Assembly (NCBI GenBank): GCA_905181685.1
Contig: CAJIYK010000003.1
Location: forward strand, 62,001 to 126,000
Length of the DNA: 64,000 nucleotides
Origin: Methylophilales bacterium BACL14 MAG-120910-bin43
GTDB lineage: Bacteria > Pseudomonadota > Gammaproteobacteria > Burkholderiales > Methylophilaceae
Direction of reading: 5' to 3'
In this document: piece after piece, positions 30,199 to 49,866 of the stretch
How the letters are laid out: each line of letters begins with the position of its first letter
Numbering within the stretch: the stretch's first letter is position 1
Made by a program: the position numbers and the translations under genes
Notes under the pieces: model-generated
What the model was told of the DNA's origin: nothing
Databases searched by the model: none
Seen by the model: the letters and a program-made list of their open reading frames with translations, nothing else

Positions 30199-31062
30199 TT
30201 AATCTAATCTTTCTTTACTCATTGCTACTTTTAGTTTATCCATAGCAATTTTTTCAATTTGCCTGATACGCTCTGCTGAGACATTAAATTTATTTGCGAG
30301 ATGGTTCAACGTTTTTGCTTTATCTTCACCCAACCATCGAGCTTTAATAATCGACTCGCTTCTTTCATCCAAGGTTGCCATGGCATTTTTAAGTAATTCT
30401 AAATTATTTGATTCTGCCTGGCTTTCGTGAAGTGCATCATGTGGGTTTAATGATTTATCTTCGAGGTAGGAGATGGGTCTAAATGAATCCTCATCAGAAT
30501 CATCATCTGAATAGTCTATTGTTAATTCTTGACCGTTCATTCTGTATTCCATTTCCTTTACATCAGATTCCTTTACATTCAAATCATTAGCAATCGATCG
30601 TATTTCATCAACACTTAATGGCTTTAAAGTTTTCTTCATGCTTCTTAAATTAAAGAAGAGTTTTCTTTGAGCTTTTGTGGTTGCATTTTTAACCAAACGC
30701 CAGTTCTTGACAACATATTCTTGTATTTCTGCCTTTATCCAGAAAATGGCATAAGATACCAAGCGAACACCCTTATCTACGTCAAATTTTTTAACAGCTT
30801 TCATTAGGCCAACATTACCCTCTTGAACAAGGTCAGATACTGGAAGGCCATACCCACTGTAAGACCTAGCAATTTTGATAACTAATTTTAAATGCGACAA
30901 AATTAGTTTTTTTGCTGCTTCTAGGTCATTGTTAAGTTTTAATTTTGTACCAAGCTCATGCTCTTCTTCAGCGGTAAGTGAAGGAAAAGCTCTAATTTCT
31001 CTTTGATATAAATCAAAACTATCAGTTACGTTATATCTTGATAATGAAAATGTATTTGTCAT
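30199..31062 (-). CDS. rpoH: heat-shock sigma factor RpoH (sigma-32)
   Basis: Directs RNA polymerase to heat-shock promoters. Region 2 has LILSHLKLVIKIARSYSGYGLPVSDLVQEGNVGLMKAV, the RpoH box reads QRKLFFNLRSMKK, and region 4 ends NVSAERIRQIEKIAMDKLK. The 287-aa length is typical. A CIRCE operator covers its leader, ending 9 bases before the ATG, so transcription is probably repressed by HrcA. Sigma-32-like promoters precede grpE and dnaK in this window. No strong Shine-Dalgarno is present in the short leader. Its upstream neighbour ftsX is on the same strand. Confidence 0.96.
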   Translation of the reverse strand: MTNTFSLSRYNVTDSFDLYQREIRAFPSLTAEEEHELGTKLKLNNDLEAAKKLILSHLKLVIKIARSYSGYGLPVSDLVQEGNVGLMKAVKKFDVDKGVRLVSYAIFWIKAEIQEYVVKNWRLVKNATTKAQRKLFFNLRSMKKTLKPLSVDEIRSIANDLNVKESDVKEMEYRMNGQELTIDYSDDDSDEDSFRPISYLEDKSLNPHDALHESQAESNNLELLKNAMATLDERSESIIKARWLGEDKAKTLNHLANKFNVSAERIRQIEKIAMDKLKVAMSKERLD

Positions 31063-31071
31063 AATAATATT

Positions 31072-31098
31072 TTAGCACTCTTTATACATGAGTGCTAG
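31072..31098 (-). promoter_or_regulatory. CIRCE element (HrcA operator) in the rpoH leader
   Basis: The plus strand reads TTAGCACTC, nine bases (TTTATACAT), then GAGTGCTAG. The CIRCE consensus is TTAGCACTC-N9-GAGTGCTAA, so 17 of 18 conserved bases match with exact spacing. The element ends 9 bases before the rpoH ATG. HrcA, the only known reader of this operator, is encoded at 48.9-49.9 kb. I found no second CIRCE near grpE, dnaK, dnaJ or hrcA. Confidence 0.9.
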
Positions 31099-31130
31099 TT
31101 TTCTGTATAAAGTTCAATTAAAACAATATT

Positions 31131-32040
31131 TTATTTATAAATTTTTAGTCTTTGGATCGAATTTCTTGCTGAGATATATGATGAAACTAGGCCAATAAGC
31201 ATCGCTAGAACTATAATGTACATGTAATAATTTTGTGGCAAATCATTAAAAATGAAATCTGTACCAAATATTGAAACTAACTTATTTAATGTGGCATTTA
31301 AACCAATGATGGATAGTTTTAATATAGAAATGGTAAGAATCCCTCCCCCTAGCCCATATAATATGCCTGTATACATGAAAGGTCTTTGAATAAAAGCATT
31401 TGTTGCACCAATTAATTTGCTGACTTCAATTTCATCTTTATAGGTAAGCGTTTGGAGGCGAATTGTATTTCCAATTACAACCAGAAGGACAATTATTAAA
31501 AGTGAAGCTATAAAAAATACACTTAATTTTCCTAGCGATAGACCCAATTCTAAGTTTTTTAATCCAATTTCCGTCTAGTATGACACTATCAATCCCATCA
31601 ATCCCATCAAGACTGTCTATGAGCTTTTGAATTTTAATTTCATCAAGTGTATTTAATGATATAAAAAAAGCATCAGGAAGTGGGTTGGCAGAAACACTCG
31701 AGCTTACAGCTACATCAAGTTTGGTTTGAAGTTTTTCCCAGGCAATCAGTTTAGGTTCAAAATGAATTTTTTTTACTAAACTATTTTTTTTGAGGCTTAA
31801 TTGAATGAAGTCAATTTGGTCTTTTGAGACGGTCTTATCAAGAAAAATACTAATTTCCGCTTCGTGTTCTATATTTTGTGAAATTTGGCTCGCATTTTCA
31901 ATAAGCAACAAACCTGCGCTTGGTAAGCAAAGGGTTATGCCAATGACAATGATCATCATAATGGATGCACCAATATTATTAATGAATCTTGAAAATCCAT
32001 TTAAAAAAGCCTGATAGTGATTATGAAGGTAGTTGAACAT
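31131..32040 (-). CDS. ftsX: cell-division protein FtsX, one frameshift
   Basis: Membrane partner of FtsE, which controls peptidoglycan hydrolases at the septum. The N-terminal ORF has the first helix (IGASIMMIIVIGITLCLPSAGLLL) and a periplasmic loop. The second ORF has the other three helices and KDEIEVSKLIGATNAFIQRPFMYTG, the FtsX signature. The frames meet near 31548: one added G turns LRIGSIAR into LRELGLSLGKLSVFF. The restored length of about 303 aa is normal. It overlaps the end of ftsE by about 20 bp and lies upstream of rpoH, as in E. coli (ftsY-ftsE-ftsX-rpoH). Confidence 0.92.
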
Positions 32041-32699
32041 GGCCTATTAAATTTTGAATTGATCCCCCATTGAGTTGGAATCTTTTAAAATTAATTTTAG
32101 TTGATGGTATTTCATGTGTTGAAATAATGACAGTTACACCAACCTGTTGGAAAGCTATAAAAAATATTCATTATTTCCTCTGCATACTCTTTGTCAAGAT
32201 TTGCTGTAGGTTCATCTGCAATAAGAATTGAAGGTCTTGATACAATCGCTCTGGCAATTGCCAATCTTTGTTGCTCTCCTCCCGAGAGTGTAACGGGCAT
32301 CATTTTTTCTTTTTTGAGTAAATCTACTTTATCAAGCGCAGCTCTTACCCTTCGATTTATATCTGCTTTTGACATGTTATTAATTTCCAATGGCAGGGCA
32401 ACGTTTTCAAAACAATTTCTATCGTAAAGCAGTTTATGGTCTTGAAATATCATTCCAAAACGCCTTCTCAAGAAAGGTATTTCTTTATCTTTAATACTTG
32501 AAAGATTTTGACTTTCAAAAATAATTGATCCTGAGCTTGGTTTTTCTATGGCCGATATAAGTTTAAGAAGTGTCGTTTTCCCTGCGCCTGATGGACCAGT
32601 AACAAATACAAGCTCACCTGAAGATATTTCTAAATTAATATTTTGTAGTATTTCAGGGCTATTTGGATAACTCTTACATACTTTCTCAAAGGTTATCAT
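32021..32699 (-). CDS. ftsE: cell-division ATPase FtsE, one frameshift
   Basis: ABC ATPase that drives FtsX. Walker A is GPSGAGKTT, Q-loop region IFQDHKLLYDRN, signature TLSGGEQQR and Walker B ILIADEPTANLD. The track ORF ends wrongly (FPTGWCNCHYFNT). Removing one T from a T-run near 32160 restores NIFIAFQQVGVTVIISTHE with the switch histidine, and the frame continues to a TAA at 32021. The length is then about 226 aa, as usual. The start overlaps the end of ftsY. Confidence 0.93.
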
Positions 32700-38242: not shown

Positions 38243-39355
38243 CTAGAAAAAATCCTTAACTTTGTCCAGCCAAGTTTTTGATCTTGGGCTATGTTTATCA
38301 CTATCTTTTTGGTTTATTGCTTCAAGCTCTTCTAGTAGCCTTTTCTGGTCATCATTCAGTTTCACAGGTGTTTCTACTACGACGTGGCAATGTAAATCTC
38401 CATATTGACTTTGTCTGACTGGTTTTATGCCTTTTCCACGTAAACGAAAGACAGAGCCTGTTTGGGTTTCTGGAGAGATTTTAATTTTGGCAGTGCCATC
38501 TAAGGTTGGTATTTTTAATTCTCCACCAAGTGCTGCTGTTGAAAAACTAATAGGCATTTCACAATGAAGATTACCCCCGTCTCTTTGGAAAATAGTATGT
38601 TCCTTAAGACTAATAACTACATATAGGTCACCTGATGGGCCACCATTAACACCTGCTTCACCTTCACCGCTTAGTCGAATTCTATCTCCTTCATCCACAC
38701 CTGCAGGAATTTTGACAGATAACGTTTTCGATTCTTTTACACGGCCAGTGCCATTACAATCTGGACATGGGTCTTTAATTGTTTTGCCGGTACCATTACA
38801 ATCTGGACAAGTTTGTTGAACAGAAAAGAAACCCTGCTGCATTCGAACTTGTCCATGTCCCTGACATCTTTGACATGTTGTTGGCTCTGTTCCTTTCTTA
38901 GCACCTGTTCCGCTACATGATTTACAGGTTGATAATACTGGAACACGGATTTTTGTTTCAGTTCCTTTTGCAGCATTTTCTAATGTAATTTCCATGTTGT
39001 ATCTAAGGTCTGCACCACGATATACATTGGATCTTTGGCTTTGTTTACCCCCGAAAATATCTCCGAAAATATCTCCAAAAGCATCTCCAAAGTCACCAAA
39101 GCCTTCAGCGCCACCTCCACCTACAGACTGATCAACACCTGCATGGCCAAATTGATCATAAGCTGATCTTTTATTAGAATCAGATAGGACTTCATAAGCT
39201 TCTTTCGCTTCCTTGAAGCTATCTTCTGCTTTCGGGTTATCGGGATTTCGGTCTGGATGGTATTTCATTGCAAGCTTTTTGAATGATTTTTTTATTTCCT
39301 CATTAGATGCTTGACGACTTAACCCAAGAACTTCGTAGTAATCTTTTTTAGCCAT
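38243..39355 (-). CDS. dnaJ: chaperone protein DnaJ
   Basis: Co-chaperone that delivers substrates to DnaK and stimulates its ATPase. J domain at 1-70 with [10 protein letters not shown] (HPD), a Gly-rich linker ([20 protein letters not shown]), four zinc CxxCxGxG repeats ([41 protein letters not shown]) and the C-terminal domain. The 370-aa length is normal. It is the third gene of grpE-dnaK-dnaJ. A perfect 13-bp hairpin lies in the spacer after dnaK. Confidence 0.97.
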
Positions 39356-41421: not shown

Positions 41422-41448
41422 ATATTGGGTCATTTGTATTAATTTCAA
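41422..41448 (-). promoter_or_regulatory. sigma-32-like promoter directly upstream of dnaK
   Basis: The minus strand reads TTGAAA, 13 bases, then CCCAATAT. The sigma-32 consensus is CTTGAAA-N13 or so-CCCCATNT. The -35 core and the CCC-AT-T core fit with the ideal spacing; the base before TTGAAA is G rather than C. It lies in the 91-bp grpE-dnaK gap, about 55 bases before the dnaK ATG. Confidence 0.6.
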
Positions 41449-41457
41449 CTCTACAAG

Positions 41458-42004
41458 TTAATTCTTTTCTTTTGCTACTGTAACAAGGGCTGGTCTGAGC
41501 ACTCTCTCGTTAAGGGTATATCCCTTTTGCATTACTGAAATAACAGTATTTGCATCTTGATCTGACTCAACCATTGTCATCGCTTCATGAAAGTTTGGAT
41601 CAAAAACTTCTCCCTTTGGGTCAATCTCTTTGATATTAAGTTTTTCAAAAACACTGGTTAATTGTTTTGAAGTGAGCTCCATACCTTCTTTATAATTTTC
41701 TAATGATGATTCATCCACCATTAATGAAGCATCTAAACTGTCTTTAACAAGTAAAATTTCAGAGGCAAAATTTTCAATGGCGTATTTTCTGGTCTTATCC
41801 ATCTCATCAATTGATCTTTTGCGAAAGTTTTCAGTTTCAGCTTTTGCGTATAAAACAGCACCTTCAAGTTCAGTAATTTTTGCTTTTAAATCATCTAAGG
41901 ATTCTGTTTGATCATTTTCATTTGATGACTTCTTGAGTATCAATATCTTGTTGTTTGTCTTCTTTACTTTGTTTAGCTGTAGTTTTTTTTTGTGATTTAC
42001 TCAT
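41458..42004 (-). CDS. grpE: nucleotide exchange factor GrpE, one frameshift
   Basis: Releases ADP from DnaK. The track ORF covers the coiled coil and beta domain, with ENFRKRSIDEMDKTRKYAIENFASEIL and the C-terminal block EVFDPNFHEAMTMVESDQD. Upstream, the ATG at 42004 encodes MSKSQKKTTAKQSKEDKQQ, a typical disordered GrpE N-terminus, in another frame. One indel near 41935 (around ACTCAAGAAGTCATC) joins DTQE to SSNENDQTES. The restored length of about 181 aa is normal. It is first in the operon, behind a sigma-32-like promoter. Confidence 0.92.
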
Positions 42005-42048: not shown

Positions 42049-42076
42049 ATATTGGGACAGTTTTTAAAAATTCAAG
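42049..42076 (-). promoter_or_regulatory. sigma-32-like promoter upstream of grpE
   Basis: The minus strand reads CTTGAA, 14 bases, then CCCAATAT, about 45 bases before the grpE ATG. This matches the sigma-32 consensus CTTGAAA/CCCCATNT in both elements. It is divergent from the edd promoter in the same 167-bp gap. Confidence 0.68.
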
Positions 42077-48855: not shown

Positions 48856-49866
48856 TTATTTAATTGATTTGCTTAGCATTTTAGCAGTGATATCTACAAT
48901 TGGGATGACTCTTTCGTACGCCATCCTGGTTGGCCCTATTACACCAAGTATCCCTAAGACCTCTCCATCGGATTGGTATGGTGCTGTGACGATACTACAT
49001 TCGTCAAGTGCTTGGTATCCAGATTCTTCCCCAATAAATATTTGCATACCAGATGAATGGTGACTTTTTTCAAGTAATTGAAGTAGCGCTGTTTTTTTCT
49101 CAAAAAGCTCAATAATTTTTTTTATACTTTTTACATTTTGTGACAAATCGACTGTATCTAATAACTTACCTTGTCCAGTCAGAATTAAATTTTCATCAAG
49201 TTTAGGACTAATCGAAAGCTCTACCGCTGCACTCATAAGGTTTGTCATATTTTTTTTCATTGTCGAAAGCTCGTCGATAATCTTTTCTTTTATTTTGCTT
49301 ATATCCAAATCCTTATAATGTTCATTAAAGAAATTAGAGGCCTCAATTAATGTGCTTTGATCATATTCCTCTTGAGTATCAAGCACACGATTTTGAACGC
49401 TTCCATCACTTGTCACAATAATAACGAGGATTCTTTTTTTTGATAAGTTTAAAAATTCTATATGCTTAAAGCTAATTTTTTTAGCCTTAGGTAGCATTAC
49501 AACACCAGCAAAGTTAGTCATACTAGATAATGTGTCAGCCGTGATATTAACTAAATCTTTTGAGTTGGAGGTTTGTAAGGAGCTCTGCAGTATATCTAAA
49601 TCAGCTTTATTTGGCGACTTCATCGTAACCAAGCTATCGACAAAAAAACGATACCCTTTATGCGTTGGTATTCTACCTGCAGAAGTATGTGGGCTTGAAA
49701 TGAAGCCTGCATCTTCAAGGTCCTTCATAATATTTCTGATTGATGCAGAACTTAGATCTAGGCCTGAAGAAGCAGTTAATGTTTTTGAACCGACCGGTTG
49801 GCCATCAGCAATATGATGATTTATTAATGTTTTTAGGAGATGCTGAGTTCTAGTATCAATTTCCAT
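48856..49866 (-). CDS. hrcA: heat-inducible transcription repressor HrcA
   Basis: Repressor that binds CIRCE operators. The N-terminal winged helix reads QPVGSKTLTASSGLDLSSASIRNIMKDLEDAGFISSPHTSAGRIPTHKGYRFFVDSL, the classic HrcA opening. The C-terminal half has IFIGEESGYQALDECSIV and GVIGPTRMAYERVIPIVD. At 336 aa it is full length. No CIRCE lies upstream of this gene; the only one I see in the window is in front of rpoH. HrcA usually depends on GroEL to fold, and groE is not in the window. Confidence 0.96.
   Translation of the reverse strand: MEIDTRTQHLLKTLINHHIADGQPVGSKTLTASSGLDLSSASIRNIMKDLEDAGFISSPHTSAGRIPTHKGYRFFVDSLVTMKSPNKADLDILQSSLQTSNSKDLVNITADTLSSMTNFAGVVMLPKAKKISFKHIEFLNLSKKRILVIIVTSDGSVQNRVLDTQEEYDQSTLIEASNFFNEHYKDLDISKIKEKIIDELSTMKKNMTNLMSAAVELSISPKLDENLILTGQGKLLDTVDLSQNVKSIKKIIELFEKKTALLQLLEKSHHSSGMQIFIGEESGYQALDECSIVTAPYQSDGEVLGILGVIGPTRMAYERVIPIVDITAKMLSKSIK

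Follow-up and report, generated by a model that had tools for sequence, protein, structure and literature searches.

The stretch of DNA analyzed here (the window, 64 kb in full) carries rpoH, hrcA, and the grpE, dnaK, and dnaJ genes, all on the minus strand. By RpoH, the nearest relatives are marine Methylophilaceae (95% identity). The genes are as follows:

30199..31062, minus strand: rpoH (sigma-32), 287 aa; TIGR02392 370 bits, cut-off 323
31131..32040, minus strand: ftsX, upstream neighbor of rpoH, split by a frameshift in the assembly; intact (302 aa) in the closest relatives
38243..39355, minus strand: dnaJ, 370 aa
39408..41366, minus strand: dnaK, 652 aa
41458..41943, minus strand: grpE, open reading frame as listed lacks the N-terminal part; the ATG at 42004 meets a stop, an apparent frameshift
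48856..49866, minus strand: hrcA, 336 aa, without a CIRCE of its own; TIGR00331 331 bits, cut-off 197

The neighborhood of ftsX and rpoH matches the ftsYEX-rpoH order. Several reading frames are incomplete: ftsE (32112-32699) is short, at 195 aa compared to about 225 aa, and is intact in the closest relatives; the N-terminus of grpE is lost through a frameshift at about 41922-42004; and the open frame of rpoD in this assembly is short as well, at 361 aa. The broken or short ftsX, ftsE, grpE, and rpoD frames are probably assembly indels.

We scanned the window for CIRCE using the inverted repeat TTAGCACTC-N9-GAGTGCTAA as the test pattern. One site was found with three or fewer mismatches in the 64 kb, whereas 0.04 are expected from dinucleotide shuffles:

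31072..31098, minus strand: CIRCE operator (candidate HrcA binding site) in the rpoH leader; 17/18 match, family-wide conservation, co-occurrence with hrcA

The site reads TTAGCACTC-TTTATACAT-GAGTGCTAG, with one mismatch among the 18 fixed bases, and is separated by nine bases (31063-31071) from the rpoH ATG at 31062. The full leader is TTGAACTTTATACAGAAAA-CTAGCACTCATGTATAAAGAGTGCTAA-AATATTATT-ATG. A first-pass annotation of the window had reported both a 17/18 CIRCE nine bases ahead of the rpoH start and the presence of hrcA, and both reports are borne out. The CIRCE at 31072-31098 is real; a chance palindrome is ruled out by the shuffle expectation together with the tracking of hrcA presence described below.

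We examined the spread of the site in a Methylophilaceae set of 60 genomes from 24 genera. None of those at 90% completeness or above was without a near-perfect CIRCE; most often there were two, and in the cases with listed positions, one of them abutted rpoH. Within the genus itself, four complete genomes had exactly two perfect CIRCEs each. The comparison of rpoH leaders in relatives, which the first-pass annotation had proposed, shows that the palindrome is kept across Methylophilaceae, i.e., not lost in close relatives.

For a wider survey, we sampled genomes evenly over families (70 of Burkholderiales, 79 of other Gammaproteobacteria) and took the 600 bases 5' of rpoH from each, scoring the rpoH CIRCE as present at four or fewer mismatches and hrcA by TIGR00331. 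The site was present in 64 of the 70 Burkholderiales and 56 of the 79 other Gammaproteobacteria. Among Burkholderiales, 64 genomes had both hrcA and the rpoH CIRCE, none had hrcA only, none had CIRCE only, and six had neither; the corresponding counts for the other Gammaproteobacteria were 54, 3, 2, and 20. Pooling the two groups (118, 3, 2, and 26) gives a Fisher p of 1.7e-23, a value that ignores shared ancestry. Thus, all hrcA-bearing Burkholderiales (64/64) and 54 of 57 hrcA-bearing other Gammaproteobacteria carry the rpoH CIRCE, with the three exceptions confined to the latter group, and 26 of 28 hrcA-less genomes are without it, the remaining two keeping a near match. Reversed leaders, which served as a control, never had fewer than four mismatches to CIRCE. 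Because the leaders of the order and class are nearly saturated outside the conserved elements, conservation of CIRCE and of these elements reflects selection. On this comparative evidence, CIRCE ahead of rpoH is the normal state in hrcA-bearing betaproteobacteria and many gammaproteobacteria, and the order and class survey rules out a lineage-specific oddity. The first-pass annotation had presented the arrangement as unusual; instead, it is near-universal in hrcA-bearing betaproteobacteria and common in gammaproteobacteria, and a CIRCE upstream of rpoH was reported in Geobacter sulfurreducens in 2004 by Rodionov et al. (PMC545781), the one relevant paper on CIRCE with rpoH in the literature searched. 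Conservation and co-occurrence with hrcA strongly support HrcA control of rpoH.

The palindrome could in principle act as a transcribed RNA element between ftsX and rpoH (a hairpin, terminator, or attenuator) rather than as a DNA operator. A 9-9-9 inverted repeat could fold as a hairpin in ftsX-rpoH read-through mRNA, and rpoH of E. coli is regulated post-transcriptionally. However, the sequence is conserved beyond the requirements of pairing, to the CIRCE consensus, in about 100 families and tracks hrcA, and the identical type of sequence stands ahead of groES. Furthermore, transcripts born at the local promoters would miss the left arm, because the starts predicted from their -10 elements lie within or behind the repeat. 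We therefore consider an RNA element very unlikely and treat the palindrome as a DNA operator.

The right arm of this operator overlaps a promoter-like element:

31069..31077, minus strand: TGCTAAAAT, extended -10-like, rpoH-specific, made up of the right arm of CIRCE and AAT; T25-A26...T30 conservation

The element is intact in the window and matches the sigma-70 extended -10 pattern TGnTAnnnT. T25-A26...T30 (TGCTAnnnT) was present in 154 of 159 rpoH leaders compared to 1 of 36 groES CIRCEs, and T30 in 155 of 159 compared to 4 of 36; the T30 counts at groES rule out the idea that AAAAT is conserved as a general CIRCE flank. Among groES CIRCEs, 35 of 36 had no extended -10, and GAAC never occurred at the rpoH-type position. 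Given the different promoters around the rpoH and groES CIRCEs in the leader alignments, the same operator appears to be embedded in different promoters at its two targets. The extended -10 ends six bases before the rpoH ATG in the window; therefore, the rpoH transcript in this lineage may be leaderless or near-leaderless. No Shine-Dalgarno sequence was seen in the nine-base gap between CIRCE and ATG (31060-31071 with the ATG included), in contrast to relatives with AGGAGG leaders.

A second promoter-like element extends into the left half of CIRCE. We searched for sigma-E promoters as GGAACTT, a spacer of 15 to 17, and TCNNA, following the sigma-E consensus and the E. coli rpoH leader. When leaders are aligned on CIRCE, GGAACTT lies about 16 bases 5' of CIRCE, and TCNNA runs into its left half. 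A -35 resembling GGAACTTT (at least 6/8) was found in 40 of 41 family leaders compared to 1.8% of control windows. In the 117 leaders with a good -35, the gap to TCNNA was 16 in 72 and 15 to 17 in 100. The operator itself dictates the TC at CIRCE positions 8-9, which leaves the A and the register-shifted cases as the only independent support for a sigma-E -10. With the -35 at -16, TC falls at CIRCE position 8; with the -35 at -14, mostly in Methylophilaceae, it falls at position 10. Other than by a putative sigma-E promoter, this compensating two-base shift of the -35 and TCNNA is difficult to account for. The element also tracks rpoE: GAAC was present in 80 of 109 rpoE-positive leaders compared to 1 of 11 rpoE-negative leaders (p = 4.6e-5), the lone exception being a 92% complete genome, and 29 rpoE-positive leaders were without GAAC. 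Across the clade, the spacing in 100 of 117 leaders, the register shift, and the tracking of rpoE together point to a sigma-E promoter at rpoH. Three rpoE-bearing, hrcA-less genomes (G091, G203, and G138) keep the sigma-E element, with CIRCE decayed to a remnant.

The window itself departs from this pattern:

31109..31116, minus strand: TGAACTTT, sigma-E -35-like, 7/8 match to GGAACTTT; 18 bases to the TC of TCATG inside CIRCE (optimum 16)

Despite the 7/8 match of TGAACTTT, the spacer of 18 and the -10 TCATG fall outside the sigma-E pattern, and that spacer rules out a clean sigma-E promoter at this locus. The source genome does have rpoE; the sigma-E part of the rpoH promoter may be non-working in this species. 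The first-pass annotation was thus right about CIRCE itself and missed its interleaving with sigma-E-type and sigma-70-type promoter elements.

The chaperone genes of the window have a different type of upstream sequence, which we identified as CTTGAAA-N11-15-CCCCATNT:

41422..41449, minus strand: sigma-32-like promoter of dnaK, GTTGAAA-N13-CCCAATAT, 12/14 consensus match
42049..42076, minus strand: sigma-32-like promoter of grpE, CTTGAAT-N13-CCCAATAT, 12/14 consensus match

Sites of 12/14 quality numbered five in the window compared to zero or one in shuffles. The window scan at three or fewer mismatches found no CIRCE upstream of grpE or dnaK, in agreement with the original claim that these genes have sigma-32-like promoters and lack CIRCE. 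A genome-wide CIRCE scan, also suggested at that stage, returned two sites in the source genome (795 kb, 51% complete): the one at rpoH and a further one just 5' of groES, directly following a sigma-32 promoter, CTTGAAA-N14-CCCTATTA. In the Burkholderiales groES leaders sampled, CIRCE was present in 36 of 40, mostly behind a sigma-32-like promoter. The groES of the hrcA-less genome G091 (L315) has no CIRCE. Second groES copies differ: that of G096 (L314) is without CIRCE, and that of G064 (L316) has a weak CIRCE with three mismatches and no obvious sigma-32 promoter.

These data bear on a linear cascade in which HrcA controls sigma-32, which in turn controls the chaperones, replacing direct control of chaperone operons. 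CIRCE at rpoH and its absence at grpE and dnaK fit such a cascade. However, groESL in the source genome carries CIRCE directly behind its sigma-32 promoter, as do most of the CIRCE-bearing groES leaders of the order, and we give almost no credence to the linear scheme; as the whole picture, it is refuted by the groES CIRCE. Loss of CIRCE control at groE is likewise ruled out, and rpoH is not a CIRCE target in place of the usual groE. With CIRCE and a sigma-32 promoter both present at groESL, the wiring predicted from these sites is a feed-forward loop, not a plain cascade. The placement of HrcA above sigma-32 is well supported by conservation and hrcA co-occurrence; the strict cascade drawn from it was too simple.

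In our reading of the sequences, the rpoH CIRCE very probably works as an HrcA operator through which rpoH is repressed, embedded in the promoter and acting in a feed-forward circuit. Gating of HrcA by GroEL is established in other bacteria. When folding capacity is adequate, HrcA, kept active by GroEL, would occupy the operator and cover the rpoH promoter, occluding RNA polymerase at the extended -10 in the right half and, in most relatives, at the sigma-E promoter in the left half. Because both promoters are interleaved with CIRCE, HrcA would block housekeeping as well as envelope-stress transcription of rpoH. Heat or loss of free GroEL would release HrcA and allow rpoH transcription, and sigma-32 would then drive expression of grpE, dnaK-dnaJ, and groESL. 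HrcA would thereby act on groESL directly, via CIRCE, and indirectly, via sigma-32, with GroEL feedback closing the loop. What we observed are the sequence, its conservation, its co-occurrence with hrcA, and promoter-like logos; binding by HrcA, repression of rpoH, gating by GroEL, and the start sites used are inferred from them.

HrcA might bind this CIRCE and yet be a minor or vestigial brake, with sigma-32 set mainly by the sigma-E and sigma-70 promoters, translation, and proteolysis. Translation and DnaK/FtsH are the main controls on sigma-32 in E. coli, and regulation is often simplified in reduced marine genomes. Against this, CIRCE is near-invariant in the family even at a genome size of 1.3 Mb and absent or decayed in hrcA-less genomes, which argues for continuing selection. 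In addition, the nine bases that separate CIRCE from the ATG here would hardly accommodate a leader thermometer of the E. coli type. We regard a minor brake as unlikely and retain the functional operator as the preferred reading.

E. coli illustrates a related state. Its rpoH P3, a sigma-E-dependent promoter in the ftsX-rpoH intergenic region, appears in the MG1655 leader as GAACTT-N16-TCTGA, with the spacing and the ftsX-rpoH neighborhood of the conserved element. Unlike the hrcA-bearing leaders, in which the sigma-E -10 sits inside CIRCE, the MG1655 rpoH leader has no CIRCE (best, seven mismatches), and no hrcA match was found in the E. coli control genome. We lean toward the view that hrcA-bearing beta- and gammaproteobacteria share a composite sigma-E/extended -10/CIRCE rpoH promoter at which one HrcA dimer would integrate GroEL status, envelope stress, and basal transcription, and that loss of hrcA would lead to decay of CIRCE, leaving an E. 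coli-type P3. The circuit is simple and open to test, and the E. coli state could plausibly have evolved by such a path.

The textbook view, based on E. coli, places sigma-32 under translation and proteolysis and treats HrcA as a repressor of groE and dnaK. Our comparisons indicate a serial connection of the HrcA and sigma-32 systems at rpoH in most hrcA-bearing beta- and gammaproteobacteria, and a -10 region common to the HrcA operator and the sigma-E input familiar from E. coli P3. At groESL, the operator and repressor are the same as at rpoH, and the source-genome groES has one such operator; there, unlike at rpoH, CIRCE follows a sigma-32 promoter (CTTGAAA...CCCCTATTA) without an extended -10 or GAAC. 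No description of a composite sigma-E/sigma-70/CIRCE rpoH promoter was found in the literature searched, which did not cover the most relevant earlier survey, Permina and Gelfand 2003, cited in PMC545781 and likely to include CIRCE sites from some members of the beta- and gammaproteobacteria. The composite promoter may therefore be new; the rpoH CIRCE arrangement itself is already known and standard. In G. sulfurreducens (PMC545781), a perfect CIRCE lies at -51 of rpoH, groESL has a CIRCE, and other chaperone genes have sigma-32 promoters, as here; hrcA-grpE-dnaKJ also has a CIRCE in that species, whereas grpE and dnaK in the window have sigma-32 promoters only.

CIRCE also precedes rpoH in Desulfuromonadales, among the loci of RpoH relatives. 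In the marine single-cell proteobacterium AG-365-F14 (L105:2919-2974), two CIRCE-like sites with three mismatches each precede rpoH, their starts 29 bases apart. Five alphaproteobacterial loci (L126, L131, L138, L139, and L140) have CIRCE-like sites with one to three mismatches about 500 bases downstream of the rpoH match, which probably belong to the leader of a neighboring gene.
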